Assembly: GCA_001692895.1 (NCBI GenBank)
Contig: KV748200.1
Coordinates: 813,343 to 877,342, forward strand
Length of the DNA: 64,000 nt
Origin: Cenococcum geophilum 1.58
Taxonomy: Eukaryota > Ascomycota > Dothideomycetes > Gloniales > Gloniaceae
Direction of reading: 5' to 3'
The notes below the pieces were generated by a model. The model was not told where the DNA came from. It saw only the letters and a list, made by a program, of their open reading frames with translations, and did not search any database. Below are positions 25,001 to 59,620 of the stretch, in pieces (position 1 is the first letter of the stretch; every line of letters begins with the position of its first letter). The translations under genes and the position numbers were made by a program.

Positions 25001-25419
25001 GCTAAGGGTGGGATGCCCGTACTAAAGAGAATGCACACCTATACTATTATAAGGGGGAGAGTACTAGAACATCGGGAAAATATTCGCAGGATGAGATTCA
25101 AGTAGACTTTGGTTTTCGCGTTTCGCGTAATTGACATGCAATTTGACCAACTCNACACGNANTTNACNAACTTGACACGCAATTGACCAATTTNACANAT
25201 CNAAANGTNAAATAACACGCAGTTGACCTATTTAACAACTTTAAAAGCTAACTATATATTCCTTGACACGCAGTTGACCTACTTAATAGCTAACTATATA
25301 TTCCTTAACACGCAGTTAACCTATTTAACAACTTTAAAAGCTAACTGTATATTCCTTGACATGCAATTAAGGTAAAGTTATATACTAATTACGCAAATAA
25401 ATTTTTACACAGTTTTATT

Positions 25420-26333
25420 ACTTAGAGGCTCTGCATAAGGCTCTACACGAAGCTCTACACGAAGCTCTACACGAAGCTCTACACGAAGCTCTACACGAGC
25501 TCTACACGAAGCTCTACACGAAGCTCCTACACGAAGCTCTACACGAAGCTCTACGTACAGAGGCTCTGCACGAAGCTCTGCACGAAGCTCTGCACGAAGC
25601 TCTGCACGAAGCTCTGCACGAAGCTCTGCACGAAGCTCCTGCACGAAGCTCTGCACGAAGCTCTTGCACGAAGCTCTGCACGAAGCTCTGCACGAAGCTC
25701 TGCACGAAGCTCTGGCACGAAGCTCTGCACGAAGCCTCTGCACGAAAGCTCTGCACGAAGCTTCTACGTAGAGGCTCTGCACGAGGCTCTGCGCGAGGCT
25801 CTGCGCGAGGCTCTGCGTACGGAGGCTCTGCACGAAGCTCTGCACGAAGCTCTGCACGAAGCCTCTGCACGAAGCTCTGCACGAAAGCTCTGCACGAGCT
25901 CTGCACGAAGCTCTGCACGAAGCTCTGGCACGAAGCTCTACGTAGAGGCTCTGCACGAGGCTCTGCGCGAGGGGCCCTGCGCGAGGGCTCTGGCGTACGG
26001 AGGCTCTGCAGCGACAAGCCTCTGCAACGAAGCTACTAAGCGTAGCAGAGGCTCTGCACGAGGACTCTGCTGCGGAGGCTCTGCGCGTACGAGGCTCTGC
26101 ACGAAGCTCTGCACGAAGCTCTGGCACAAAGCTCGCCTGCACGAGGCTCTGCGCTCGAAGCCTCTGCCGGTACGGAGGCTCTACACCGAAGCCTCTGCGC
26201 ACGAGGCTCGGCGCGGAAGGCTGTCTACACGAAGCTCTACTACGAAGCTCTACGGTAGCAGAGGCTCTGCAGCAAGGCTCTGCCGCGAAGCTCTCTGGCG
26301 TACGGAGGCTCTAACACGAAGCTCTGCATCGGG
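25420..26333. repeat. 12-bp minisatellite array A1 (CACGAAGCTCTG)
   Basis: About 70 units, mostly CACGAAGCTCTG or CACGAAGCTCTA with single-base slips and a recurring TACGTAGAGGCTCTG variant. Because 12 is a multiple of 3, the minus strand keeps long open frames (for example 25405-26202) of repeating Arg-Ala-Ser-Cys or Ala-Glu-Leu-Arg. These are by-products, not credible proteins. Confidence 0.9.
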
Positions 26334-26439
26334 GTCCTCGCCGGACTATATTCCTCGATAGGCGGTCTACACCGTGTCTCTGGCTATGTAGCCGCCTTTA
26401 TTTTTACCCTTCGCCTAAGCCTTTCCTTAACCTTCGCCT

Positions 26440-26723
26440 ACTAGGGAGGCAACTAGAACGGCAGCCAGCAGAGGACCGTTGCTAGAACTAGATGACTATC
26501 GCTAGAACCAGACGACCGTTACCAGAAACCAGACCCCCGACGCGTTACGCAGAAGCCAGACGACGCGTCGCCAGACGCAGACGACGCGTTACCTAGAACC
26601 AGACGACGTTACCCAGAAGCCAGACGACCGTCGCCAGAGACCAGACGACCGTCGCCAGAACCAGACGAACCAGGTCGTTAGAGCGCAGACGACAATCCGC
26701 CAGAGCGCAGACAGTCTGTCCGC
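26440..26723. repeat. ~20-bp tandem array B1 (CCAGACGACCGTCGCCAGAA)
   Basis: About a dozen degenerate units ending at the N gap. The GACGACCGTCG core is itself partly palindromic (CGACCGTCG). Confidence 0.85.
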
Positions 26724-26748
26724 NNNNNNNNNNNNNNNNNNNNNNNNN
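26724..26748. other. Assembly gap (25 N)
   Basis: A run of 25 N. Scattered single N also occur at 25,154-25,210 and three near 50,748-50,772, so the consensus is of low quality in the repeats. Confidence 0.98.
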
Positions 26749-27029
26749 CGCGTATGACATGCATTTGACCAACTCGACATTCGCATTGCAACTTGACACG
26801 CATTGCATTGACAAATCTAAAAGTTCAATAAATCGTTGACTAATTTAACAAACTTTAAAAAGGCTAACTATATAATTCTTGACCGCAGTTGCCTACTAAT
26901 AGCTACTATATATTCTTACAGGCTTAACCTATTTAAAACTTAAAAGCTTGTATATTCCTTGATGCTTAAGGTAACGTTTATACTATTAGCAATAAATTTT
27001 TTCACACAAGTTTATTACTTAGAGCGTCT

Positions 27030-27810
27030 CCTAAGGCTTACACGAGCTCTACGAGTCTAACCGAACCTACGAAAGCTTAACGAAGCTCTAAACAGAGCTC
27101 TAACGAGTCTCACACTCTCTACCGAAGTTACGTACAGAGGCTCTGCCGAAAAAGCTCTGCCGAGCCTCTGCGAGCTCTGCCGAAGCTCTGCACGACCTCC
27201 TGACGAAGCTCTGCACGAAGCTCTGACGCAAGCTTGCCGAGTCTGCAAGAAGCCTCTGCCGAAGCTCTGGGCAGAGGCCTCTGCCACGAAGGCTCTGCGT
27301 AGAGAGCCCTCTGCACCAAGCTCTGACGAAGTCTAAAAGTAGGCTCTGCACGAGGCTCTGCGCGAGGCTCCGCGAAGCCTCTGCTACGGAAGCTCTGCCA
27401 CCAAGCTCTGGCCGAACTCGCAAAGCTCTGAACGAGCTCTGCACGAGCTCTGACGAAAAGTTGCACGAAGCTCTGCCTCTGCGAAGCTCACGTCAGGCTC
27501 TGCACGAGGCTCTACGCGAGGCTCTGCGAGGCTTACCGGAAGCCTCTGACACGAAGCCTCCTGCACGAAGCTCTGACGCTACAGAGGCTCTGCAGAGCTC
27601 TGCGGAGGTCTGCGTACGGAGGCTCTGCACAAAGCTTGCCCGAACTCTGCCGTATAGTCTGAACGAAGGCTCTGCGCGAAGCTATGCCTAGGCGCTCTAC
27701 GAAGCCTGCACAGGCTCTGCGCGAAGCTTACCGAAGCTCTAACGAAGCTCTAGTAAGAGGCTTGACAAGGCTCTACACGAAGCTTGCCTACGGAGGCTCT
27801 ACCGAGCTGA
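27030..27810. repeat. 12-bp minisatellite array A2, indel-rich
   Basis: The same unit as A1, but nearly every copy lacks one or more bases (for example GCCGAAGCTCTG, CACGAGCTCTG). The sequence just before it (26,749-27,010) is likewise an indel-rich version of 25,120-25,420. Confidence 0.85.
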
Positions 27811-28019
27811 TCGGTCCGCTAGAACCAGATACGTCTACCGTGTCACAGTATAGCGCCTTATTTTTACCTTACCTTCTTCTTACATCCAGTCTACCTGTCA
27901 CCAGGACCAGAAGGCACCACCGAGGCCGTTGTAGAACTAGACAGAAATAAAAACTCAAAAAAAAACCAAAATAAGATAAATATACAGACAAAAACCAAAA
28001 ATAATTAAAAAAAGTATAT

Positions 28020-28545
28020 CGCTAACGACACGTTACCAGAACCAGACGACCGTTACTAAGCACAGAACGACCGTCGCCAGAAAGACGACGTTACCAGAAC
28101 CAGAGACGTTACCAGACTACGACCCGTCGCCAGAGCCAGACGACCGTCGCCAGACCAGACGACCGTCGTTAGAGCCAGACCGACTACCGCCAGAGCCAGA
28201 CAACTGTCGCTAGAATCAGACGACCGTCGCAGAACCAGCGACCGTTACCAGAACCAGACGACCGTCGCTAGAGCCAGACGACTGTCGCTAGAGCAGACGA
28301 CCGTTGCCAGAACCAGACGACCGTCTCCAGAGTAGACGACTGTCGCCAAAACCAGGACGACCGTCGCTAGAGCCAGACGACCGTCGCCAGAACCAGAGAC
28401 CGTCGCTAGAACAGACGCGTCGCCAGAACTAGACGACGTTACCAGAGCCAGACGACCGTTACCAGAACCAGACGACCGTCGCAGAACCAGACGAACCGTC
28501 GCCAGAACTAGACGACTGTCGCCAGAGCCAGACGACAACGCTAGC
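28020..28545. repeat. ~20-bp tandem array B2
   Basis: About 25 units of CCAGACGACCGTCGCCAGAA type, the counterpart of B1 beyond the gap. The N2 copy at 54,890-55,340 is the same array in reverse complement with C-to-T decay. Confidence 0.85.
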
Positions 28546-28599
28546 CAGCGCGACTATAAATGATTGATCGATGATCGAATTAAGGTAGCCAGACAGGTT

Positions 28600-28915
28600 A
28601 GGCATAAACAGGTAGATGCTGACGGTAGGTAGATGTAGACAGGTAGGTAGATGCAGACAGGTAAGTAGATATAGATAAGGCAGGCAGATGCAGATAGGTA
28701 AGTAGATGCAGATAGCAGGCAGATGCAGATAGGTAGGTAGATGCAGACAGGTAGGTAGATGCTGACGGGTAGGCAGATATAGACAGGTAGGCAGATGCAA
28801 TAGTAGGCGATGTAGATAGGTAGGCAATGCAGACAGGTAGGCAATGTAGACAGGTAGGCGATGCAGGCAGGTAGGTAGATAGGCAGGTAGGTAAGTCAAT
28901 AGGTAGATAGGTAGA
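28600..28915. repeat. 17-18-bp tandem array C (AGGTAGGTAGATGCAGAC)
   Basis: About 18 units. The reverse-complement counterpart in N2 is 54,590-54,835 (CTACCTACCTATTTATAT type). Confidence 0.85.
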
Positions 28916-29059
28916 AGACATCGCTATATTATATTATTATCTAAATAATAATATTTATTTTGCTAGCCTTATAATAGCTTTAAATAGCTTTTATTTATTT
29001 AAAATATGCTATTAGTATAAAAGAGGTAAATATATTATGGTTGCCAAATGCGTAGATTG

Positions 29060-32935: not shown

Positions 32936-34848
32936 TAGAGTTCCGCCTCAGACTACAGGGCAAACTTAAGGTTGGTAGATAGCTGATTGATTAAAAGAAA
33001 GTGGCGTTTATTTAGGCGGAGACTAGTGACACTTTAGTATTAGTGAGTGCGCCTTAAGTTCTGCCCTTGCCGGCTAAGTCGCTTACGAGATAAATGGAGC
33101 GAAAAAGCGACTTCGTTAAGATGGCAGCATAACGTAAGCCATATACAGGTGATATTTGATCAATTTATAATAAAATCAACAACGAGCTTATATATTTCAA
33201 ATAGGCCAAATTGAAGCTTTTGTATTACTATTTCGATCGTGATATCGTTTGAATTAATTTAACTACGTTATAGTAGTGATGTAGACCCGCGCGTCGACTG
33301 GTTGTATAGGCGACTACTATATTCCTACGAGGTCCTCCTTTAGATCAACAACCTATTAATCCACTTATTTATAGGCCGCAGATTGCACTTAAATATATAA
33401 GAGAGGTGGGCCTAATCCTAATTATACCCACGGGGGTTTGGAACGGCTCTATTTAATATAGTAACGTTAAGCTTTAGTAGAGTCATTCCTTCCTTATCCC
33501 ATGCGCTGTTAAGAAAGGTCGTTTGGTAAGCAAACCAACCAGATTTGAAATGCAATATCGTGATAATAAAACTCGAATTTGGTATATATTTATATTGGTT
33601 AGGTTGGACAAAGTCTGTATTATTAGAAGAACGTTTATAACCTATTATGGTAGTTTAATTAAGGTAGAGAGCAATCTAGTGTTCGCGCACGGGCCAGATT
33701 TCCTAAACGACCTCAACAGCGCATAGGATACTCCCTTTAAGTTAACTGTATTTAATTTCTCTATATCCTAGCTTCTAAAAGGCTCTATATAGGTAAGAGT
33801 CTTTAAGATAGTAGTAGGATTATAAGGTAGAAGGCTTATAGCTTTCCAGGTGCTGTAAATTGTATTATCTCTTGCAACGCCGACTTGCGTCCATCTGTTA
33901 TCGATAAGAATCGACCAATAGAATCAGTTAAATCAAAATCATCAATGTGGAAAGGATTAAAATTAAGTAGCGGCCAGGGCTTCGGGAAGGGGTTCTTTTG
34001 CGACGCAATTTGGTTAAATATTATATTAAGTCGGCTTAACAAAGTCTATATCGTTAGAAGTATATTTAGAAGGCATGGTTAGACATTATACGCGTTGTTT
34101 TGATTTGGTGTTCTCGCACAGACCATTTGTAGATGGACGCCGGCGTTGTAAGGGATAGATGAATGCCTACATACGCACCTTTTGGTAGAGCTTTAAAAAA
34201 TATTTCTTATTACGCCTAAGTGGCCACATTAACAAAAGTCATCTACTTGCTTCCTATAGTATTAAAAGAGCGGCCTAAAATAACCTATATTTAGTGGTTA
34301 AAGCTTATAAGTTAAATAAGGTACTATGCTTGCCGAAATATCGTAAACTTGCGCCGGAGTAAAGCCGGTTATCGCGCACCACCCAATTTTATATAGAAAT
34401 CGATATAATTGATTATTTCTACCTGCTTACGCCATTATAATAGGCCGTTATCTTCTAATTAAGGTTATAAACCAAATTAAGCTTTATTTAAATCTTAATA
34501 AGTACGTATCTAATATTGCGGTTGCTTTAGGGCTATTAAAAACAACTATTTATAAGCTTTAATTAAACTAGGACCTTTAGGGCCAACTATATACGCTATT
34601 TAGTATAAAACTAGGTAGACCGGGCCTTCTTTTAGAGTATTAAAAGTAGGTCAGTATTCTTGGCATAGTATTAAGTTTTTTATTAATATTTTTGCTTAAT
34701 TATAGTAACTACTTAAGTACCTTAAAGAAAGGCCTACCGCGTATCTTAATAAGATATAAGACTTCCTCTTTAACGAACTTAATATCTAAGCCTTTATTAC
34801 TACTATTTACTATATTCTTAAGGTAGCTTAGTAGTTTTAAAAGGTAGT
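32936..34848. other. AT-rich repeat relics, unassigned
   Basis: No intact gene. The interval 33,520-34,130 contains two copies of the GTGTTCGCGCACGGGCC-type motif and the RPSVIDKNRPI reading (33,885-33,920), both related to 3.95-4.72 kb. The interval 34,440-34,840 is RIP-decayed, with a plus-strand frame rich in TAA/TAG that I cannot assign. Confidence 0.45.
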
Positions 34849-35119
34849 TATTACGGTACCGCTATAGACCCTTTCTGTTACGGCACTGTTACAGACCCTC
34901 GTTAGGGGCTCGTCTGGAGCCTTGGCGCTATATATATAAACGTGTCCTTTCCTTAACCTTCTTCTAGTCCTTGTCTTGATATTCTCGTTAATAGACTACC
35001 AATTGTACAGGCTTACGCGTCCCTCTTGCCGTGCTCGTGCCTTGATTAACTAAGTCGCTAACATTATATTAAGACCAACCACCCTTTTTTCCTAAGAAGG
35101 AACTTAAAAATATCTATAA

Positions 35120-35182
35120 GGATATAGAACAGGACCCTAAGGATATAGAACAGGACCCTAAGGATATAGAACAGGACCCTAA
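35120..35182. repeat. 21-bp tandem repeat ×3 (GGATATAGAACAGGACCCTAA)
   Basis: Three perfect copies, followed by four copies of GAACTA (35,183-35,208). They lie in the leader of Z. The CCCTAA at each unit end is not telomeric. Confidence 0.85.
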
Positions 35183-35916
35183 GAACTAGAACTAGAACTA
35201 GAACTAAAACCCTAAGAATACGAACGGAATATAAACGGAACACGAATAGCATATAAATATAACCACGACCCTAAGAACCAGACACGCACGGATAAGGACC
35301 CCTAAAAGAACCTACCAGAAATTACCTAATACCCCTACATTTAGCGAATACTAGATTAATTCGACTGGGTTGATCTAATTAAACTAGAGCCTTAATATAG
35401 GCCTATTACTAAATCGAATTAATTAAATTAAGGCCTTTTAGGGAGGTATAAACGATTAAATTAAGTATATGACCCTAACCGTACAACCCAACCAACGAAC
35501 GAACTGACGAATTAAAATGTCAAAATAAGGTTTCGCCAAGACGCTAACTGGACCCTTCTTAACCCTTTTAAATTGAAAGCGAACGACCTTAACGACCAGT
35601 TATACTAGACGTTAATTATTTAAATATACAGCCAGCGAATAAGGAACGATTTGGTTAAATTAATCGATTAAATCAAAATTAAAAGGAATTAATTTGGACT
35701 ACTTAAAGAACCTACATGTCTTAACTTCTAAGTAAGCCTCTGCCATTAGTTCGCTTAGGTGTACGTAATTAAAGTTAAATCTAACCTTTAACAACTGCCT
35801 ACCCTGTAGGACTCTATTATTATTCTTATTAAAATATATGAGTATCTATTACCTAGACATTAAATATACGCGATAGAACCAGTAGCAATATTACCGATAG
35901 TATGGCTCTATTAGCT

Positions 35917-36800
35917 CTTCCGTTCGAACCTTCCTATACTATGTTAAAGAGCCTCCGTTAAAAGGTCTCTAATTACACTATTACCTCTATTACCCTACCT
36001 CATCGACCTAAGAACCTCTCTACGGATCTCCACCCCTACCTTAACAACGCTATTGTGACCTTAAGCACTTTAACGGCCTATCTATACAATAATAATGCTT
36101 CCTAGGCTATAAGGGTAGTAGAGGTAAAAGAGGGGGTAGAAAGAGTTAATATAAAGGTTGAAGAAGTTAAGGCTAAGGTTGTGGAAGTTAAAGCTTAGGT
36201 TAATGAGGTTAATAAGAAGGTTGATAAGGTTAATAAGAAGGTTGACGAGGTTAATAAGAAGGTTGATAAGGTTGATAAGAAGGTTGACAAGGTTGACAAG
36301 AAGGTTAATAAGGTTGACAAGAAGGTTGACGAGGTTAATAAGAAGGTTGCGGAAATTAAGACGGAGGTTGCGGAGGTCAAGACATAAGTTAACGACGTTA
36401 AGTTGTAAGTAATGTCGTTAGAAATGTAAATGGACAATATTAAGAATAGCCTTTTTAACTAGACGTAAAGCCTTAATAACCACACATATATTTAACTAAA
36501 TTCTATATAAAAATGGCTCGACGACTAGATTAAACCTATTATAGCTTATGTTTAGGATGGAGACTGCTATAGGTATATTGTGGCTAAAGGTTTTCCTAAT
36601 AGAGTTAAAGACTTCTGGAGGCTTGTTTTAGACCCTAAGACCCTAATAGATCTTGTAAGATATTACTTAGTACGAGACTAGGAACGATGGAAGAGGGCTA
36701 CCTTAAGGGATACTAACGTTAGCTGTTATATAGAACTAGAGGATACAGTTACCGCGCATTTATATAAGTGTTTAAGGGCCCTGGCTATAATATAGGGCCT
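35917..36800 (+). pseudogene. Coiled-coil protein of element Z, RIP-interrupted
   Basis: One plus-strand frame can be followed for almost 300 codons with only TAG/TAA interruptions (read as former Gln codons). The middle (36,150-36,400) is a long run of heptads with Val at a and d positions, such as NKKVDKVNKKVDEVNKKVDK. The DNA there is a 21/42-bp repeat (GTTAATAAGAAGGTTGATAAG). The C-part contains YIVAKGFPNRVKDFWRLVLD and VRYYLVRD followed by RWKRA. I do not know the family. It is the only protein frame in Z and so may be a gag-like protein or a passenger. Confidence 0.6.
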
Positions 36801-37780
36801 ATAGTATAGCGTCCTTAAACCCCTAAGACCTTAACGCTAAGGCCTAGGAAAGCGTAAGGTAGAGATAGATAATAGGTTAAGACGAGTTAGGGCACGAGAA
36901 GACTAGGACAACGATTCTGTAACAGGATTAGAATTAACCTCTTTATAAGATGTTGACGACTAAAGGTCTTAGCCGAGTAGGGTAATATCGGTGTAGATAT
37001 GGGTACCTTCTAATACAGAGAGAAGAGATCTTGTAGAACTGCTGATGGTAGCTAAAAGAGAGGATCCAGGAAGACGTAGCCCTAAGTCTATATATTAGGA
37101 GCCTAGTAATTCTTCTAAGCTTTAATAGAGGATTAGATCTACTTCTTCTACTAAATAATAGAGGAATCGGATGCGTTATAGCGACGGTCAATTAGTCTAT
37201 ACCTCTAAGCTTTAAGGACAACATCAGGACCGCACCCCTAGGGAAGAGCTTTGTTAACCAGTCTCTAGCCTAGAACCTACTTAACTATTCTCTAGTAAGG
37301 AGCTTAGATAATTAGCCCCTGGTCTAGGTCCTACTTAACCACTCTCTACACTATAACCTGACCTAACCTAACTAACAAGACGTCGCGCTAATACGCCTAC
37401 AACACTAATCCTAACGCTAGTACCGTACTGCTACCTAAACCAACCGACTTCTACTACTCTACCTGCAGCTACCCAATTAACCCTTGCTGCTCCACCTGCA
37501 ACAACAATTTAGAACGGATCTATAATATGGCTTTCTTAACGGGGAGGATAACTATAAAGCCTGAGGGCAGGCTTTTGCGGAGGGGGGGGTAATATTACGG
37601 CACTATTACAGACCCTTATTAGGGGCTCGTCTGGAGCCTTGGCGCTATATATATAGACGTGTCCTTTCCTCAACCTTCTTCTAGTCCTTGTTTTGATATT
37701 CTCGTTAATAGACTACCAATTGTACAGGCTTGCGTGTCCCTCTTGCCGTACTCGTGCCTTAATTAACTGAGTCGCTAACA

Positions 37781-38026
37781 CTTTCAGCTAGGTAGGTATT
37801 AAGACAAATAATGTTAGCTGGTTGGTAGGTAGAGATATAGAATTGAATAAGTGATCTGTTTTATTTAAGGTGGCTTTAAGAGCCCTAATATATATAAGAG
37901 AATTAACCCCCTATAGGGGTCCCTAGAGGGTAGTGTAATAAGACGATATTAGGCTAATACTGATGTCTAACAGCCGTCGTCATAGGTCAATATTACCTAT
38001 AGGTAAAGCTACCTCCGTGGCCAACA
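37781..38026 (-). repeat. 3' LTR of Y (main part) and TSD copy of Z
   Basis: 37781-37785 is the duplicated CTTTC of the Z insertion. 37786-38026 continues the Y LTR, about 90 percent identical by eye to 43247-43487, with differences mostly C/T or G/A. Confidence 0.85.
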
Positions 38027-41000
38027 CACCCCCTTAGATCTGGCGTAGAGCGGCAGAGCTGGATTACTGGATTAGGTAGTTATAATAGACGAGCTAGTAG
38101 TGAGCTTTATGATTTAATTGTTAGTTTATTAGATATCTAATATCTTAAAGCCCTACTACTTTAACGAATTTTTAATGATTTTGCTTTAAGAGAGCTTTAG
38201 TTAGTCTATCTGCAGCTATTTTACTTATCGGTACCCATTATACGACAAAGCTTCCATTTTATACCTTTTAGCAAAGCTAGAATTGATAGATATCTATATA
38301 TTAGAGTTTTGTAGATACCGTAGGGGTCTCTTTTGTTACAATCCGTACTAACTGCTGATTATTATAATTAATAATAACGTCCTGTTCTGGATTAAATCTA
38401 ATAACTTTAAAGATCCGAACTATATGCTTAACCTCCCCGCTAATATGCGAGAGAGCTAGGAGTTCTGCCTTTTATCTAGTTACCTGCTATGCTATTAACC
38501 TATTAAATAAGCTTATTAAGAAGCCCTATAAGCTCCGTTATATTAGAGCATTGTTAGTAAAGCTAGTATTAGACGCAGCTTTTAGAACCTGGTTTATCTC
38601 ATATAGCGTAATAGTAGAGAACTTAAGAGCGAGGTACCTAGTATTATAGAGATAGGTAAGCAATCTGTTGATCTCCGTAAGATAAGCTAGCGACGGATTT
38701 TATAAGAACTTAGTTAGCCTGCTAATAGAAAAAGCGATATTTAGTTGTATAGTAGATGCCGGATATATTGCAGAACCTATATGGTGTTAATATCCTTTTA
38801 TCTAATTTGGCATAGCTTCTCCTTTATATAATGTCAATTCCTAGCCCAATAGTGGTGTAGCTAATAGCTTTAGATATTCTAGATGGTATATTAAGACTAG
38901 CTTCTTAAGATACTAATCTAGATAGAGCTAGAGCTTTCCCTTTTGTCGATCTTGTATAACACGAGTATTTAGAAATGACGTGAATTGAGGTATTTGGCGG
39001 ATCTCAAATTAATCTTATAGCTGCTTTAGGATATCCTCTATCTGCTATTAATAGCTTAGGTGTCCTATAATTAGGATATTGTTAACGTAGAAGAATATAA
39101 AGATAGGTTTAGTAGGGTATATATAGAGACACGGCTTATTTAGTATAGCTTTTAAACCTATACTCCGTAAAGCAGTAGACATTTCTAAGAACTATAATTT
39201 GGGAGATTTACGTAGTCCGTATATTATCTTTCTTAGACGGAGAGAGAATCTAGGTAGTAGGTCTATACCCTTAGGGGGAATAAGGTAGACCTTATTATTA
39301 ACTAAGGCATTAACAAAGGCGTTAACGGCGTTAATTTATATAACGTCTAGGTTAAAACTAGCGATAAAAGCGTAGAGCAGATAGAAGGTCTAATAGGCTA
39401 CCGTAATAGCTTTGACCTCTTCTTATAAGACTACTTAAAGGTCTCTGCGGATAACTAGATAAGCTTTAAATCTTATAATAAAGCCATCCAAATCTTCCTT
39501 ATATGTAAAGACCTATATAGTAGAAAGTTAATAAACCTTCTTAACTAGTTATACCTCGTCCTAGGTGTGTTTTCCTATTAAGGCCTTTATCTTAGTATAA
39601 GCAGCTACTTTAAACTCTATAGCGTACCTATAATTAAGTATTTCTTTCTATGACTTTAGTAGTGGTGGAAAATCGTCTTAATATCCGTACGTTTTTATAG
39701 CAGTAGTATAGAAAGCGTAAGCCAATGGTGTTATATCTAGATTGATAATATTATTACCATTATTAATTTAAACCGCAAAGGCTCGTCGTTATAAATCCTG
39801 ATTTAGCATATCTTTTTGTCACGGAAGTGGGCACGAGCTGGAATACAATGTACTAAATAGGGTAGTAATTAAAGAAGGCTACGTACGCGTAACTATGCGT
39901 GGTTGATATAAAGACATTTGGATGAAGAAGAAGATTCTTCGTGTGCCAGGTCGGGTATAAATAGGGGTTATAGGGGAACGTGTGTAGGTGTTTTGGGACG
40001 AACGTGAGTACGGGTCAAGAATGTTAAAACGCGCAGGGACGTGAGAGCGTGTGAGTCCCGTGACACTTTCTTCTTTGCTATAGGCCGCTTTTTACGGCTA
40101 GAATATCTCTTACCCCCTAATGATGAGCCTGCTGTTATCTAAGGTTTGGAATGAGGTGTAGAATCTACAAACGGTGGTTTGGTGTCTTTAGGAGATAACC
40201 AAGTAGTAGATAATATCTATGGCGTAGATACTACCGTAGATGGTGTTTGTTAAGGCGTTAGAGATATAGAGGGTATAGATAGTTCTGGAGTTAGCTCCGG
40301 GGTAGGTAGCTAATAAAGTTCTTCTGTTAAGATCTAAATGCTTTTTAATATAGGAGTAACGTTAATATTTGCTAAATATGGTAGTCTTATATCTAGTTCT
40401 TTGTTAAAGTTTTTTATCTAGTCCTTACTGCTATTTTAAAGATTATCTAGTAGGTTTTAGACTTACTAAAAACGGTCCTTTTAAGCCTATGAGATAATAA
40501 GGTATTCTAGTGTTTTAGGAGATTAATATCTCTTTAACTTATTAATTTGTATATTACAAAATCGGATAATGCGGTTAGTAGTTAGTATCTATACCCTATA
40601 GATATTTAAAGCTTCTATACTAACGAGATAACCTATTTAGGCTTGTGACTTAAACTTTACCTTCCTAGAAATGCTGTATTTAATAAGTACGTAGGTTAAA
40701 GATCCGGCTATATAAAGTCCTGCTAGCCATAGCTTTTATTTATATAGTATCTTAAATAGGGTCTTTTAGTTAATAGACTTAATAGGAGTTTAATTAAGTA
40801 GGAACACTATAAGGAGTACGAATTTGGGCCATAGATCCACGGGTAACTTTGCTTTAATAATAGCAGTCCTTACTTATTTGGAAATGGCTCTTCCTAACCT
40901 CTCTATAGGTCTATTTTAAGCTAGGGTATCTAGTATCGATTGCTTAATAATACCTCTGTTAAGCTAGATAAGGTTTTTTACCCTAGCGCCTATACCTTGC

Positions 41001-41029
41001 TCCTTATCTATATACTAAATACGGACACC

Positions 41030-41377
41030 TTAAGCATTAAATTTCTTCGCAAACGCTATTATTGATTTAAAGAGTAGGAGTAGCGTCTCTTGCTTATGGT
41101 TCTTAATAGGAAAAGCATAATGGTACTTTATATAGTTATACCAAAAGTAAGCTATATACGTGTCTTTATTAAACCCATCTTCTTTTATAATAATATTAAA
41201 GTGTATATATTTAAACGGGTAGGTTCCCTTTATGGATATTCTATAAAATATCTGCTGTGTTATCTTTCTAAGAATATATAGTTTATAAAGTAGTATATTA
41301 TATAGAGTTCTTCCTCTATCTATCTTAACTACTTTAACTCCATCTACTGCAGTTAGTAAATAATCTACTAACTCCAT
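41030..41377 (-). pseudogene. copia integrase fragment of Y
   Basis: 115 open codons on the minus strand carry an integrase-like stretch: YPFKYIHFNIIIKEDG with the Asp of the first catalytic position reading Asn, then YFWYNYIKYHYAFPIKNHKQ and LLLLFKSIIAFAKKF. The frame ends at both sides in RIP-type stops. It is part of element Y. Confidence 0.65.
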
Positions 41378-43242
41378 ATTATAGTGTAGTAAGCGTTAAT
41401 GCCATACTTTATTATATACTGAGGTCTTAAAGAATCTAGTGGATGTAGCATAGGTAATAGGAGTAGGTGGTAAGTAGGCAATAGTATTAATAAGGTAGAG
41501 ACCTCTGTATTTTATAAGGTTAGTAAATAGGCTTCTATTATCCTTATAGCGTAGGTGGTTTATAGATTGGTCTATAATTACTTTAACCCTATAGAGCTTC
41601 GCTGTGGATATTAGATTGGTATGAAAATAAGGAGCGTATACTATGTTCCTTAATATTAGATACCTAGTTAGACGTTATTCGCCTACCTTAATAGCCAAGC
41701 TGATATCACCATATCTATAGATTTCTGCTCCTAAATCTTTAGCTATTATTATAGATATATAAGGCTTAAGGTTATAAAAGTATCTAATATTGTTATAGAA
41801 GTGTATATCTACTATAGTGTTATACCCCTAGGCGTTAATTAAAGACAGATCCGGATGTTCCTATAATGATAACGATGAGTAGGATATTGTTATAGCAGCC
41901 GCTATAGCTTAGGGCCTGTCCAGATTCTTAATCTTTTTAGTAGAAGCTAATAGAGACATTCTTGACCTAGGGCCTTCCCTCTTAATCTACTTAACCCTTT
42001 TATTATAATACTACTTGTTTATTAGAACCTTAAGCTATTTTTAATACCTCTGTAGATACTTATTATTTGGTATAAAGTTCGGACCTTAAAGAGACTGAAA
42101 TAGTTACTTGTAATTCTTTAACTTATAGGGTAAACCATAAGCAAAGCACTTTGCCTTAGGTGATTAAGAAGGTGCTAGAGTAATAAACGTCGTAGGATCT
42201 ACAGCTAGCTGCCCTAAAAGTATAGCATAGGTATTACGTCCCATATTTAGATACTTATAGAGGAGGTTAAATTCCTTAATTATTATCGCTATTTCGAGCT
42301 TTTTTAACCTCTTCGCTACCTTTTAAATAAAGGTATAATATAGAGCTAGATAGATCCCCTTATAGTCCTAAACAAAGGCTTATATAACGCTGCTCTCTAT
42401 TACCTTTATTAGCCCTTCCTCTAGTTCTTCGCCGTTCTATATAATGGTGATATAAAGCTAAAGCCATAATTTTAGAGTCTGGTGTTTAGGCCCTTGTTTC
42501 CGTTTCCTAAGATCGTCTAATACTATCTGCTGCAATGTAGCTTAAGATGGCTTTACTACCTTCTTTAGCTGTCTTATAATTAAATATGGTGTAGTAAGGT
42601 TCTTAAGATAACCCAAAAAGTTAGTACCTACGGTGGTATATAAGAGTACTATAAACGTATAGAGCTTCTCTTCCCGCTTTAGGTAGTCTTGTCGTTATAG
42701 CTTATAGAGCTTAAAGAGCATTCTCTATATCTCTAGAGATTGCTAAGGTTATTGTTCTTAACTTAATAACCTAGGTATAGCTGTTCTAGTAGACGCTAAA
42801 GTTGCTGCTAAAGCTGTAGGAGCTACTATAGGTATTGCAGGAGCTGCTGCTGGTGCTGTAAAAGCTGCTGCTAGTGCTATAGAAGCTGCAGGAGCTATTG
42901 CAGGTGCTATAGGAGCTGCTGCTATCGAAGGTATAGCTAGCTTAGTGTTTTCTTTAATTTCGTTTTCCGTCTTATCTGGGTTAATATAGTCCTAGATCTT
43001 CGCAAAACTTGCTTTTTAGCGGATAAATTAAAACCATATAGGCTAGTCTTTCTGGGTTAGTAAAAGAGGGTTTATAGAGTCCTTGGTTGCCATATTAGCT
43101 TTTATTTTAAGATTGCGTAAAGAGACGCGCTTACGCGTAAAGCACGCGATATTCCGTGACGAACTATGCTTAAAGAGGCTTAGTAGTAGTCGTCTGGCCA
43201 CTAAGATCTCCCTAGTGCTTAGAAGGTTACCAGGCTTATAAC

Positions 43243-43487
43243 TTTTAGCCAGGCAGGTATTAAGATAAATAACGTTAGCTGGCTGGTAGGTAGAGATACA
43301 GAATTAAATAAGTGATCTATTTTATTTAAGGTGGCTTTAAGAGCCCTAATATATATAAGAGAATTGACCCCCTACAGGGGTCCCTAGAGGGTGGTGTAAT
43401 AAGACAATATTAGGCTAATACTGATGTCTAACAGCCGTCGTCACAGGTCAATATTACCTATAGGTAAAGCTACCTCCGTGGCTAACA
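43243..43487 (-). repeat. 5' LTR of Y
   Basis: 245 bp, directly followed (at higher coordinates) by the GACCC target duplication and the rest of the X 5' LTR. Confidence 0.85.
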
Positions 43488-44328
43488 GACCCTAGTTAGG
43501 GGCTCGCTTAAAGACTTGGCGCCTGTATATAGACGTGTTTTTTCCTTAACCTTCTCTGCTCCTTAGCTTAGTATCTTTATAATATAGCATTCTATAAGCT
43601 TTGGTTTAGAGGCATTTATATAAGCCGTAATATTATACTAAGCTTACCCACCTGGGGGGGACTTCATTTGTTTTAAAGCTCCCTCTTTACCTTGCCTAGG
43701 AAGGCCTGGATAATCTCCTACCCCCGTTCTGTGTATTCTAAGGGGACACGCGTCGAATACCCCTAGCTGCGCGTCGTCGACGTGTTGAGTCGCTATTATT
43801 GATACTGGGAGCCGGTATTTAAGCAGCTAGAAGGTCTTCTGTAGATAAGGACGACTGCCTAGGAAGGCAAGAATATCTCACCCCCCCCTTTAACCTTTTC
43901 GACTAATACGGAGTTATACGAGCTATAGAGACGACCTTGGTTAAGACTTAGCCTAGTACTGCGAAGAACGACATAGTAATCCTGTCACTAAGCCCAGCAC
44001 TAATCCCGTAGTGTCGGCTAAGATAAGCTAAGACATAACCTAAGCCGTGCCATTGGGCGGTAGGTATATGTTGTCCGCGAAGTCCTCTGGTATATATTAG
44101 GTTCGGGCCAACGGCTAAGATAAGCTAACTTATAACCCGCGCCGTATTATTGGGCGGTAGGTGCATATTATCCGCGGAGTCCTCTAGAACGAATCCTACC
44201 CGTTGTCTGGCTACTACGCTGCGATAACTACCCCAATTAATACTAAGCTGTACAAGGAGAGACGAAATTAATTAGGAAGGACCTAACGCTTATACCGTAC
44301 TGCTACCCTAACCCTAAACCGACCGTAT

Positions 44329-46187
44329 AATCGCGCCGATATGCCTGTGATTGAACCAGATAACCGTCGCGCCTATACGCCTGCAATACTACGAACTTAA
44401 TTACCGTCGTGCTAATATACCTGCGACACTATAAACTAGACACGGCTGTGCCGATACGCCTACAGTCCTACTAACTGAATGATCGCGCCGATACGCCTGT
44501 AATACGCCTGCGATTTGAATGCGGCCTGAACGGGATTTAAAAGCAAACCCGATAACCTGTCGCGCCGATATACCTGCGACACGACTCTCTAACTTGTCTA
44601 TAAACGCCCTATAGACACCCGTTAAGTTCTTATTAACAACCACCGTATCTAATCGACCCGAATATCACTGTTAACCTAGATAGTCCCTTAATCCTACGGC
44701 CGAATATATCTATATCCTATATATAGGGGTACTAGGAGCCTAGGGGAGAATTTAAGTAATTTATGGCACTCTTAATTAGGAGAACAGATTAGGAGATTTA
44801 TTCCGATTTATGGCACTCTCTAATAGCTCTATAGATGAGCCTGTTTATTAATATGACCTCTTATAAACTATCGACGCGTTTCTCTTAATAGCTATTTGTA
44901 CGACCTTCTATGAACAAGACAGCCTACTATTATAAAAGTATGTCTTGCCAGTCGTCAACAAGAATCGAAATATCGACACGTACCTTCTTGATACCTCTTT
45001 TGATACCTAAATCTAACAACAATAGCGCCGATACGCCTGCTATTGCGACTTTGATAACGACCGTACGAGTTCATCGACGATTAACGGCCTCCCTTATTGA
45101 TTCGATCGTCTTCTTCGCCCGCAGTAATCCTTTTTGACTAACACTAAGCTACGTATACTAAGGAACGACTACGGCTGATACTGAGTTATACAAGCTTTAC
45201 CTTAGGTATTTGTACACTTCGACAACGAGGTTAATACTAAACTGTGTAAGCTTTGACAACGAAATCGATTTGGACGAACTGGATAATAATCGTGCCGTTA
45301 CGCCTGCGACCTAAATGCGATTTGAATGCGACCCGAACGCGATTCGCATGCAAACCCGACCGAATGATAGCGCCGATATGCCTGCTATTACTTGACGCTT
45401 GCACCGTACTGCTACCCTGAATAGACAACGATCGTGCTGATATACCTACGATCTTGATTACCGTCGCGCCTATACGCCTGCGACCTATAAGACAAGCTCT
45501 CGCGCCGATATGCCTACAAGTGAACCCGATAGCCCCTCGCGCCGATATACCTGCGAGCCTAAACCTGTCGCTGGCACTGTACTGCTATTACAATAGACCC
45601 TTACTGCTCTATCTGTAGCTAAATAAACAGACCCTTACTGCTTTACCTGTAGCTAAACGAACAGACCCTTGCTGCTCTGCCTGCAGCTAATCCCGATTCG
45701 GCCATCGCTGCTCTGCCTGCAGCTAACCGACTTCTACTACCCTGCTTGCAGTAACAACCGTATACAAGGAGGACCTTTGCCCCTTATATGACCCTGCCGC
45801 TTGCACCGTACTGCTACCCCCAAATAGATAACGGCTGTGCCGATACGCCTACAGTCTAATTAACCAAATAATCGTGCTAATACGCCTGCGATTAATTGAC
45901 CAACGATAGCGCCGATACGCCTACTATCTACTATCTAACGCTAGTACCGTACTGCCACTGGACCTCTGCTGCCTTGCCTGTAGCTAAACTAATACCTTAC
46001 TGCCTCGCCTGTAGCACTATAATCGACATCTGCTGCTCTGCCTGCAGCACCACAAACGACTTTTACTGCTTCGCCTGTAGTATTAACTGTATATAAGGGA
46101 GAGCTTTGCTCCCTGGAATACGACCCCGTCGCTAGCACCGTACTGCTACTAAACAGATAAGAGCTCGTGCCGACACGTATGCGAGCT
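44329..46187 (+). repeat. Dispersed hairpin family with constant loop GCCGATACGCCT (X)
   Basis: About 17 units share a near-constant 12-nt core, GCCGATACGCCT (variants GCCGATATGCCT, GCTAATACGCCT, GCTGATATACCT). It is flanked by 5-7-nt sequences that differ between units but are complementary within each. Clear examples: 44558-44581 (TGTCGC/GCGACA), 44444-44467 (GGCTGT/ACAGTC), 45020-45045 (CAATAGC/GCTATTG), 45430-45453 (GATCGT/ACGATC), 45463-45484 (GTCGC/GCGAC), 45536-45557 (CTCGC/GCGAG), 45833-45856, 45869-45894 (TAATCGT/GCGATTA) and 46162-46187 (AGCTCGT/GCGAGCT). Interspersed shorter hairpins have the form GCTGC-TCTGCCT-GCAGC. Units in Z (37,379) and, in reverse complement, in V (59,200-59,620) belong to the same family. 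Function unknown. Confidence 0.75.
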
Positions 46188-46658
46188 ATAACTCCCTAAC
46201 CCTCCCACCCTTATTAAAACTTTTTCACCTACCTTTTTATAAGAGGGGGATTAGGGGGGCTTTTTTTTTATAGCTCGGGGCGCGCTATAATAAAAGGGGG
46301 GATAGTAGAGCTAGGAGGTACCGAAGTTCTAGAGAAAGAACAACGACTAACGGAGGGCTCCTAGCGATATACCTCTCGCAGTAGCAGGAGCTGCAGGACG
46401 GCTACCTGCCCTACGTTAACTGGGTATAGCGATATACCCCTCATAGGAGCTGTATAACGGCTGCCTGCCCTACATTAACTAGGTATAGTAATATACCCCC
46501 GCAGCAGCAGGAGCTGTAGGACTGCTGTAAGTCCTAGGTTAACTAGCATCGCGATTAAGCGCCTAGATGCCAAATTTCTTTTTTTTTCTTCTCTCTTTCT
46601 TTTCTAATAAGGGGCTTATACAAAGCCTGAGGGTAGGCTTTCTTAAAGGAGGGGGTGA

Positions 46659-46821
46659 TGTTACGGCACCGTTACAGACCCTAGTTAGGGGCTCGCTTGG
46701 AGACTTAGCGCCTGTATATAGACGTGTCCTTTCCTCAACCTTCTCTGCTTCTTAGCTTAGTATCTTTATAATATAGCATTCTATAAGCTTTGGTTCAGAG
46801 GCATTTGTATAAGCCGTAACA
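46659..46821 (+). repeat. 3' LTR of X
   Basis: 163 bp, TGTTACGG … CCGTAACA, followed by the TSD GTAGT. Confidence 0.9.
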
Positions 46822-46945
46822 GTAGTCTTTAGACACGCGGTTTTAGGCGAAAAGGTATATAATTTATATTAAATCGGTACTTCTGGACGGTTATATAATA
46901 TTACTCTAAATTTATAATACCTAAACGGGCTCTATTTCTATATAA

Positions 46946-47172
46946 TAGGCGTCTTAGTTACTATAGTATAGTTCTATATTAAGGCGTCTTGGTTAATACG
47001 GTATAGTTATATATTAAGGCGTTTTGGTTACTATAGTATAGTTCTATATTAAGGCGTCTTAGTTACTATAGTATAGTTATATATTAAGGCATCTTAGTTA
47101 CTACAGTACAGTCCTATATTAAAACGTCTTAGTCACTATTATAGTCCTATATTAAGGCGTCTTAGTTACTAT
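46946..47172. repeat. 35-bp tandem repeat
   Basis: About six to seven units of AGGCGTCTTAGTTACTATAG followed by TATAGTTCTATATTA, with C/T and G/A differences. Confidence 0.8.
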
Positions 47173-47569
47173 AGTAAAATAGGTATTATCTACTACTTAA
47201 AAGGGAGTCTCCCCCGCCCTAAATATTTTTATAAAGCTAATCTAAAGAACGCTAGCCTTGTAGCTGTTCTAGCTAGTTAATAGCCTATCTTTTATCTCTT
47301 ACTATACCGCCTTTTACACGCCGTCTTATATCCTTAATAATTTTATATCGACGGCTATAAAATATAGGCTCGCTATTAACCCGCTAGCGTACCCCTTAGT
47401 AGTAATTAAGAGCTTTAATTAACGGCCTACCCGCTAGCCCTAAAGTCCACTTAGTCTAGAGCTAGAAGACTAAATTACCACCTTAAAGTATTTTATATTC
47501 CCTTAACGGCGCCTATAGGTTAAGGATAAATAGAAAAGATAGTTAAGTATTAGCTTATACCTGCGCTAG

Positions 47570-54572: not shown

Positions 54573-55744
54573 GTAATAGTTCTCTTTTACCTATCTACCT
54601 ATTAACTTACCTACCTACCTATCTATATCTACTTACCTATTTATATCTACTTACCTATTTATATCTATCTACCTATTTATATCTACCTACCTATTTATAT
54701 CTACCTACCTATTTATATCTACCTACCTATTTATATCTACCTACCTATTTATATCTACTTACCTATCTATATTTACTTACCTATCTATATATACTTACCT
54801 ATTTATATTTACCTATTTATACCTATCTATCTATACTACCTTAATTTAATTAATTAATTAAATCGTTTAGTGTTTACTAGCTAGTCGTTATTGTTTAGTT
54901 TTAGTGACGGTTATTTAGCTCTAGCGACGGTCGTCTAGTTCTAGTAATAGTTATTTAGTTTTAGCGACGGTTATCTAGTTTTAGTAATAGTTATTTAGCT
55001 CTAGCAACAATTATCTAGTTCTAGTAACGGTTGTCTAGTTTTAGCGACGGTTATTTAGTAATAGTAATAGTTGTTTAGTTCTAGTAATAGTTATCTAGTT
55101 CTAGTAACGGCCGTTTAATTCTAGCGACGGTTGTCTAGCTTTAGTAATAGTTATTTAGTAATAGTAATAGTTATCTAGTTCTAGTAACGGTTATCTAGTT
55201 CTAGTGATGGTTATCTAGTTCTAGCGACAGTTATTTAGCGATAGCGATAGTTGTCTAGCGACGGTAAGGGTTGTCTAGTTTTAGTAACGGTTATTTAGTT
55301 TTAGTAATAGCTATCTAGTTTTAGTAACGGTTCTCTACTAGCTGCCGTTCTAGTGCCTTTCTAGGTAGGGAGGATATAAGGAAAAAAGAAAGAAAGGGTA
55401 AAAAATAAGGCGGCTATATAAGTAGAGATATATATAGAGGCTATTAGGAATATAGCGGGGACTTAATATAGAGCCTTATATAATAGTTAAATATATTATA
55501 TACTAGTATACTATAGGCTAAGAATTTTTTTTACGTAATTAGTATATAACTTTACCTTAATTATATATTAAGGAATATATAGTTAGCTTTTAAGGTTATT
55601 AAGTAGGTTAACTATATATTATTTAACTTTTAAATATATTAAGTTGGTTAATTGCGTATTAAGTTAGTTAAATTATATATTAATTACGCGAAACGCACTA
55701 AATAAAGTTTACTTAAATCTTATTCTATAAATATTTTCCTAATA

Positions 55745-59199: not shown

Positions 59200-59620
59200 G
59201 CAGAATATTATAAATAAAAGTAGTAGAAGTCGGTTGGCTATAGGCAGGGCAGTAAGGGTCTATTATAATAGCAGTACGGTACCAGCAATAGGTTATTTAG
59301 GCGGCAGTATAATACTAGTAATAGGGTTGTGTTTTAGGGAGCAAAGCTTTACCTAGTCCTATTTAGGTTGTTCTTATTAGTATAATTATTCGGTCGGTAG
59401 ATTATAGGTATATTAGCGCGATTAGTATTATAATAGTAGGCATAGCGGCGCTATTAGTTTGTTAATAGTATATAGTAGTATAGTACTAGTGTAGGGTCAG
59501 TTCCGTAGGCAGATTAGCACGGAGTCTTATTATAGGGTTAGTTCGTAATAGCAGGCGTATTAGCGCTATTATTGTCTAGTTTATAGTTTATATTACTATA
59601 CTATATAATAACCACGTGTC
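59200..59620 (-). repeat. Hairpin family units in V (reverse complement)
   Basis: The loop appears as AGGCGTATTAGC, AGGCATAGCGGC or AGGCAGATTAGC. Stems: 59502-59523 TCCGT/ACGGA, 59547-59570 AATAGC/GCTATT, plus AATAGT/GCTATT and a decayed GATTAT/GCGATT-type unit around 59,405-59,455. The TCCGT/ACGGA stem does not occur in X but encloses the same kind of loop. Confidence 0.65.

Follow-up and report, generated by a model that had tools for sequence, protein, structure and literature searches.

The 64-kb window (the whole stretch of DNA analysed) holds a family of hairpins in which the loop is almost constant and the stems differ from unit to unit while pairing within each, and this raises the question of what kept the two arms matched as their letters changed. 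The preliminary description counted about 17 units in element X, one in element Z and at least four in element V. A covariance model, R1, trained on 78 contexts, of which five are units of X, gives 16 matches in X, one in Z and four in V at E≤6e-5, and the best match in the window beyond those 21 units has E=0.028. The count is correct when X17 is included, a unit with a diverged core (GCCGACACGTAT) that R1 did not report and that was spotted by eye and its pairs counted. Of the 17 units in X, 13 have 5–6 of 6 pairs and the other four have 3–4, with G-T pairs included. In X5, as in L010:2755-2784 and L017:2418-2447, a second GCGATACGCCT-like copy comes after the core, amounting to an 11-nt slippage inside the loop.

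Table 1. Positions of the hairpin units and of the elements that carry them, in window coordinates.
Feature	Position	Strand	Evidence
Hairpin unit X1	44326..44355	+	R1 34.8 bits
Hairpin unit X2, 4/6 pairs with G-T	44362..44391	+	R1 33.2 bits
Hairpin unit X3	44402..44431	+	R1 31.2 bits
Hairpin unit X4	44441..44470	+	R1 32 bits
Hairpin unit X5, core partly duplicated, 4/6 pairs with G-T	44478..44507	+	R1 34.1 bits
Hairpin unit X6	44555..44584	+	R1 34.1 bits
Hairpin unit X7, CAATAGC/GCTATTG	45018..45047	+	R1 35 bits
Hairpin unit X8, 4/6 pairs with G-T	45285..45314	+	R1 30 bits
Hairpin unit X9	45363..45392	+	R1 37.3 bits
Hairpin unit X10	45427..45456	+	R1 35.9 bits
Hairpin unit X11	45459..45488	+	R1 31.8 bits
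Hairpin unit X12, 3/6 pairs	45495..45524	+	R1 26.3 bits
Hairpin unit X13	45532..45561	+	R1 29.5 bits
Hairpin unit X14	45830..45859	+	R1 36.7 bits
Hairpin unit X15	45867..45896	+	R1 37 bits
Hairpin unit X16	45902..45931	+	R1 38.6 bits
Hairpin unit X17, diverged core GCCGACACGTAT	46160..46187	+	by eye, no R1 match
Single hairpin unit in element Z	37378..37407	+	R1 30.2 bits
Hairpin unit V	59397..59426	-	R1 31.2 bits
Hairpin unit V	59429..59458	-	R1 33.3 bits
Hairpin unit V	59498..59527	-	R1 24.5 bits
Hairpin unit V	59544..59573	-	R1 35.7 bits
Class B hairpin GCTGC-TCTGCCT-GCAGC	45671..45687	+	read in sequence; folded with RNAfold
Class B hairpin	45707..45723	+	read in sequence
Class B hairpin	46032..46048	+	read in sequence
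5' LTR of X, first bases missing, end GCCGTAATA	43485..43632	+	93.8% identity to 3' LTR over 146 nt
Primer-binding-site region of X, 3' of 5' LTR	43633..43650	+	near-identical in L040, L042, L046 and autonomous L088
Polypurine tract AAAGGAGGGGGTGA of X	46645..46658	+	similar tract in same place in L040, L042, L046 and L088
3' LTR of X (TGTTACGG...GCCGTAACA)	46659..46821	+	read in sequence, LTR comparison
LTR pair of element Z	near 34876-35065 and 37593-37782		94.1% identical

The core is common in the genome, a degenerate pattern matching 998 times on the forward and 1164 times on the reverse strand, against 119 and 117 for the same pattern read backwards. The preliminary description had proposed comparing the flanks of such matches with shuffled pairs, and on a genome sample the arms pass this comparison. 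Across 289 distinct units drawn from 58 loci plus the window, 4.63 of 7 arm positions are Watson-Crick matches, compared with 3.20 when the right arms are shuffled (500 shuffles, sd 0.07). On contig C1, where 72 of 98 core matches were examined, a sample that leans to clustered matches (the 26 left out are 19 isolated matches and 7 in one array), 3.89 of 6 positions are paired compared with 2.63 after shuffling (sd 0.12; top of 2000 shuffles 3.08). Here 33 of the 72 matches have 5–6 pairs, a level reached by 1.1% of randomly chosen positions in those loci. Isolated core matches in L001, L002, L004-L007, L055 and L056 have 0–3 of 7 pairs, as is expected of chance matches. A search for perfect stems of at least 6 bp, in 64 stretches selected for at least three cores each, gave 111 with a 12-nt loop (67 core-type, 44 other) where shuffles give 9.2; the next loop length, 14, gave 40 stems. 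A search for relatives elsewhere gave 29 viral-contig stretches, each with one exact 16-mer match, and these were judged to be chance because the matches are single; four score E 1e-4 to 2e-3 with R1 and the rest are weaker.

Pairing ends on average after 6 bp, and purine/pyrimidine (R/Y) complementarity, 0.74–0.88 at positions 1–6, is 0.45 at position 7 (85 clusters). A family of hairpins with a constant loop is thus confirmed by the R1 matches and by pairing above that of shuffles. The description of the stems as unit-specific holds in that the arms vary, but their letters are only partly free: of 335 stemmed units 92% have G at −2, 81% have T at −4 and 75% have A at −5, while several invariant core letters in the same statistics follow from the search pattern itself.

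Covariation was assessed in 78 contexts, one unit being picked at random from each cluster irrespective of pairing; the pattern removed most class B cores (see below), with a few remaining. In this set 85.4% of stem cells are paired, compared with 72.4% after shuffling, and the covariation score is 0.461 compared with 0.226 (sd 0.014), a value reached in 0 of 500 shuffles, although such counts are not a probability because the rows are related. Sliding the arms by 1–3 columns lowers the score to 0.131 or less. Each of the six stem pairs shows two-sided changes, in 2 to 30 cells, with the outermost pairs present in only 39 of the 78 contexts. Both arms have changed together between contexts, pair 3 occurring as C:G, A:T and T:A and pair 5 as four pair types. 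Two further counts in the same contexts lie near the shuffled values, namely pairs changed on both sides (7 versus 5.6, with 46 of 500 shuffles reaching 7) and further pair types (17 versus 15.5, with 80 of 500 reaching 17). The excess complementarity between arms claimed earlier is therefore supported, the covariation score included. Folding of seven class A strings with RNAfold gave the stem, a GC/GC inner helix, a hexaloop and a CU bulge in six and a different fold in one, so that what is called the 12-nt 'loop' may include a short helix of 2 bp and a CT bulge. This inner helix is a prediction: in the 78 contexts its pairs are either constant or broken and lend it no support from covariation. 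Position −9 is conserved as A in 52 of 57 contexts.

The copies now in the genome appear to be decaying. RIP-like loss of CA/TG is seen in the DNA; together with Tf2-like elements, it is the ground for taking this 177-Mb genome as fungal. The units were sorted into groups by R/Y pattern in the outer flanks, which transitions leave as it is. Between groups 4.84 of 6 positions are R/Y-complementary compared with 4.15 after shuffling (sd 0.09, highest 4.44), the 85 clusters including some non-hairpins that lower the contrast. Within groups of at least 4 units, 1336 paired cells are unchanged, 235 have one-sided transitions, 6 have one-sided transversions and 52 have double changes, 641 cells in which the majority does not pair having been set aside. 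The 52 double changes are not evidence of compensation, as two transitions always re-pair. Stems in the same slot differ almost only by RIP-type transitions, so no ongoing compensation is visible in the genomic copies; these decay like RIP targets, the complementarity having been set earlier. Two symmetric-context pairs gave no clear sign of strand constraint in the genomic copies (T-G 56 versus C-A 53; G-T 48 versus A-C 30, p 0.054).

The units are oriented. In all ten elements with a readable direction they lie in the sense orientation, as called from a clear polypurine tract in eight and from a weaker purine run in L045 and L054. In each of the 48 loci that have two or more units, all lie on one strand; both strands are represented in the window, in separate elements. 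On 50 locus strands a strict polypurine-LTR pattern occurs downstream on the unit strand in 8, antisense in 0, and is absent from 42. Folding in a 92-nt context follows the same direction, the mean stem probability of 158 units being 0.72 in sense, 0.43 in antisense and 0.68 in sense with shuffled linkers, and higher in sense for 116 of the 158; these units were chosen for 5/5 Watson-Crick pairs, since a filter admitting G-T would favour sense. When collapsed to 57 contexts the values are 0.72, 0.45 and 0.61, the native linkers differing from shuffled ones with p about 0.003. As isolated 30-mers, on the other hand, the antisense strands are the more stable (−6.4 versus −5.2 kcal/mol), the sense strand being lower in 21 of 78. 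The G content of the linkers is 0.08–0.18 in nine of ten elements with at least three units and 0.21 in L043, and in L054 the linkers are no poorer in G than the units. A sense strand that is G-poor between units would help the hairpins to fold on their own.

Wherever LTR pairs are readable, the units lie inside short non-autonomous LTR retrotransposons. Pairs were read in X, L040-L043, L045, L046, L050, L051 and L054; seven of nine array loci (7–9.5 kb) have one, and none was found in L039 and L044. In most of the shorter loci the stretch analysed ends short of the LTRs. The end region of X aligns with the ends of L040 and L046. Measured carriers span 1.4–4.7 kb, L050 and L051 being 1.7-kb elements, and L041:2337-5356 is an LTR-internal-LTR-internal-LTR tandem of a 1.4-kb element with two copies 90% alike. 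Same-strand matches of one LTR form 13 pairs, 12 of them spaced 4.0–5.1 kb and the other 10.3 kb, and those of a second form 14, of which 13 are spaced 2.3–3.2 kb and the other 14.8 kb, among the best 40 of 2265 and the best 40 of 2316 candidates respectively, where the rest of each 40 are unpaired. The longest stop-to-stop stretch in 11 stretches of carriers is 203 aa, and five open stretches of 126–203 aa from five carriers other than X have 0 Pfam matches at E≤0.1. Target duplications of 5 bp were seen by eye in L040 (GTTAC), L043 (ACACC), L054 (GTATG) and L045 (CTTTA); in X the start of the 5' LTR is missing. With an LTR pair, no gag-pol, a primer site, a polypurine tract and a target duplication, the carriers have the marks of a non-autonomous LTR retrotransposon of TRIM/LARD type that were looked for, which supports the earlier suggestion that the units reside in such elements.

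The LTRs of the carriers are of at least three types with no alignment between them (TGTWACGG, TGTTGGGAATAATATC and TGTCACGGGACTC). Modules of 100–120 nt with 80–86% identity are common to L040/L046 and L045/L054, where the LTRs do not align and the order of the modules is different. L040 and L046 are themselves colinear over 4.7 kb at 90%. A given unit recurs in the same slot in many copies, and blocks of units are duplicated within elements.

Elements that might mobilise the carriers lack the unit. L088, of gypsy type and 6.2 kb long, has LTRs that are 97.6% alike, and its open frames encode a CCHC zinc knuckle, protease, RT, RNase H and integrase. With the carriers it has its LTR ends, primer site and polypurine tract in common; compared with L040, the 3' half of the LTR plus the primer site is 94% identical over 101 nt and the polypurine-tract area 84% over 57 nt. 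Two further loci with long open pol frames, L089 and L091, have matches to the Z LTR (the Pfam scan covered L089). L088 and L089 are gypsy-like. On these similarities L088 is a candidate for an autonomous partner that would mobilise the carriers in trans. At E≤1 R1 finds no unit in L088, L089 or L091, three loci among the best 150 of 8909 RT candidates. One core match on C1 that lies within 5 kb of an RT among those 150 (L092) is not a hairpin.

The second set of hairpins noted in the preliminary description, class B, is present, a loose pattern giving 143 distinct matches. Class B can be aligned to the class A core (GC......GCCTGC) in a shifted pairing register, in window 45592-46048 and in loci such as L040, L046 and L017-L020, and an evolutionary link between the two sets is possible on this alignment. 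A third recurrent motif, around GCACCGTACTGC, is found at window 45786-45817 and 46118-46149 and in four more places; its 46118 copy has the arms TAGCA/TGCTA, and it folds no better than shuffles (z −0.29). A tandem repeat of period 59 lies at window 46362-46546, shortly 5' of the X polypurine tract. Away from the carriers, window 25124-28916 is a long tangled tandem array with many overlapping self-matches, the TA/AT ratio being 2.46 at GC 0.53 in window 26001-28000, and window 54591-55337 contains 18-nt and 20-nt tandem arrays that in part match the 28-kb array on the opposite strand.

One loop with differing, matching stems suggests that the folded RNA matters to the spread of the elements. 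Arms that differ in their letters and yet stay complementary point to one strand having to fold, and the sense bias points to that strand being RNA; we infer past selection at the RNA level. In the explanation that best fits, held tentatively and with a little less than even confidence, the units are a folding signal on the RNA of non-autonomous LTR retrotransposons, the loop of which is read by a protein. The transcript would carry a cis-acting array of hairpins, each with an unpaired A three bases 5' of a stem of about 6 bp with variable letters, within which an inner GC/GC helix, a YGATAY hexaloop and a CU bulge are predicted. The stems would serve to present the near-constant loop, and the repeated loops would be bound by a protein, most likely the Gag nucleocapsid of a helper gypsy element and otherwise a host RNA-binding protein, favouring packaging or survival of the short RNA. 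Both the binding protein and a packaging role are guesses. Binding by a helper nucleocapsid during packaging would seem the likeliest single role, at about one chance in three, with export, stability and escape from silencing as alternatives. The packaging signal proposed earlier thus stands as regards residence in retroelements, but packaging itself is conjectural and the candidate autonomous partners are without the unit. The lack of units in the partners and the greater stability of antisense 30-mers also count against the RNA array as a whole, as do the RIP-type changes within slots and the lack of clear strand constraint in genomic copies, the linkers of L054 and the inner helix unsupported by covariation, and confidence in it is held down because two covariation counts do not stand out from shuffles and the arms are partly conserved. 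The evidence comes from the sequence of one genome.

A bolder form of the RNA reading, which we regard as doubtful, is that the array is a portable 'ticket', one loop on drifting stems, exchanged among parasites with unrelated LTRs and winning packaging by helpers that are free of units. What lets non-autonomous LTR elements prevail over their helpers is, to our knowledge, an open question. Here the parasites have a countable, portable unit that is absent from the three helper-type loci examined, so that packaging competition could be tested by gain or loss of hairpins. The units would also be RNA signals whose covarying stems are still legible in RIP-mutated genomic copies.

Two other explanations are unlikely, to a similar degree. 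Template switching during reverse transcription or replication might recopy one arm from its partner and pass the loop on, turning near-palindromes into palindromes; it would account for arms that match yet differ between contexts, and several units have a second partial copy of the core, left by slippage there. Such copying should give tracts of varying length, yet pairing averages about 6 bp, and it leaves the near-constant core, the conserved A at −9 and the G-poor linkers unexplained. Alternatively, a host or element protein might bind the palindromes, as cruciforms or as double strands, in transcription or in the targeting of chromatin, a role that has been suggested for the repeats of Sirevirus LTRs. 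This would suit the high copy number, the CpG-rich stretch (CpG observed/expected 1.40 in window 44001-46000) and the partial conservation of arm letters. A double-stranded site would, however, keep letters and not mere complementarity, and neither a uniform sense orientation nor an in-context bias towards sense folding is expected of it; the units are also internal, outside the LTR. The protein-binding cruciform of the preliminary description is compatible with the palindromes, then, but does not explain the sense bias.

That the array is neutral filler, a hairpin-rich repeat without a role that grew by unequal exchange in dead-end elements, is distinctly unlikely. Unit blocks are indeed duplicated within elements and present copies decay without clear constraint, but duplication keeps stems alike and decay breaks pairing, whereas both arms have changed together between contexts. 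Very improbable is the earlier option of a very small mobile unit whose target or duplication is palindromic, which would suit the single model-scored unit in Z; it is weakened because units are inherited colinearly, with a given unit recurring in the same slot across many copies and with L040 and L046 colinear, and because pairing ends after 6 bp on average. The repeated peptide Ala-Asp-Thr-Pro, which the core does read in one frame and to which the lead of multiples of three among short unit spacings (56, 31 and 23 by residue modulo 3, n=110) might point, can practically be dismissed, as the 16 X cores scored by R1 are spread over three frames (7, 4 and 5), each plus-strand frame of X has 32–42 stops, the spacings occur in all residues and the open stretches of other carriers gave no Pfam match.

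Returning to the RNA hairpin array, no description of such arrays was found among the top-ranked matches in the open-access literature. The carriers resemble TRIM and LARD elements in their LTR pair, 5-bp target duplications (in four elements), the places of primer site and polypurine tract, the lack of a recognised protein in the scanned stretches and ends common to an autonomous gypsy element; unlike these, their internal region is a covarying hairpin array common to several LTR types. The repeated motifs of Sireviruses (PMC2829016) are palindromes whose core is CGG-CCG; they occur in plant copia elements, in the LTR and close to env. They are similar in being many short dyad-symmetric repeats in non-coding, CpG-rich parts of LTR retrotransposons, and different in that here a near-constant centre is flanked by varying arms and the array lies in the interior of non-autonomous elements, not a palindrome in a copia LTR. 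The Helenus and Ajax TRIMs (PMC10886601) have tRNA- or 5S-like sequence in the LTR, Helenus also occurring in fungi, and are likewise non-autonomous LTR elements with a part resembling structured RNA. The structured part of the carriers, by contrast, is not tRNA-like, ARAGORN finding 0 tRNA genes in nine loci or in window 34500-47200, although a degraded tRNA-like sequence could escape it. Retrozymes are elements with a hammerhead ribozyme in the LTR. Rfam gave no ribozyme in X, L040, L043, L050 or L054, with three weak matches to unrelated families, below their gathering scores, in X at E≤10 and nothing at gathering score in the other four. Small RNA viruses such as satellite tobacco necrosis virus (PMC3593212) have multiple dispersed packaging signals. 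In such viruses many stem-loops per RNA are thought to be read by one protein, as is supposed here, the difference being that there the protein is a virus coat protein and here the RNA is that of a retroelement.
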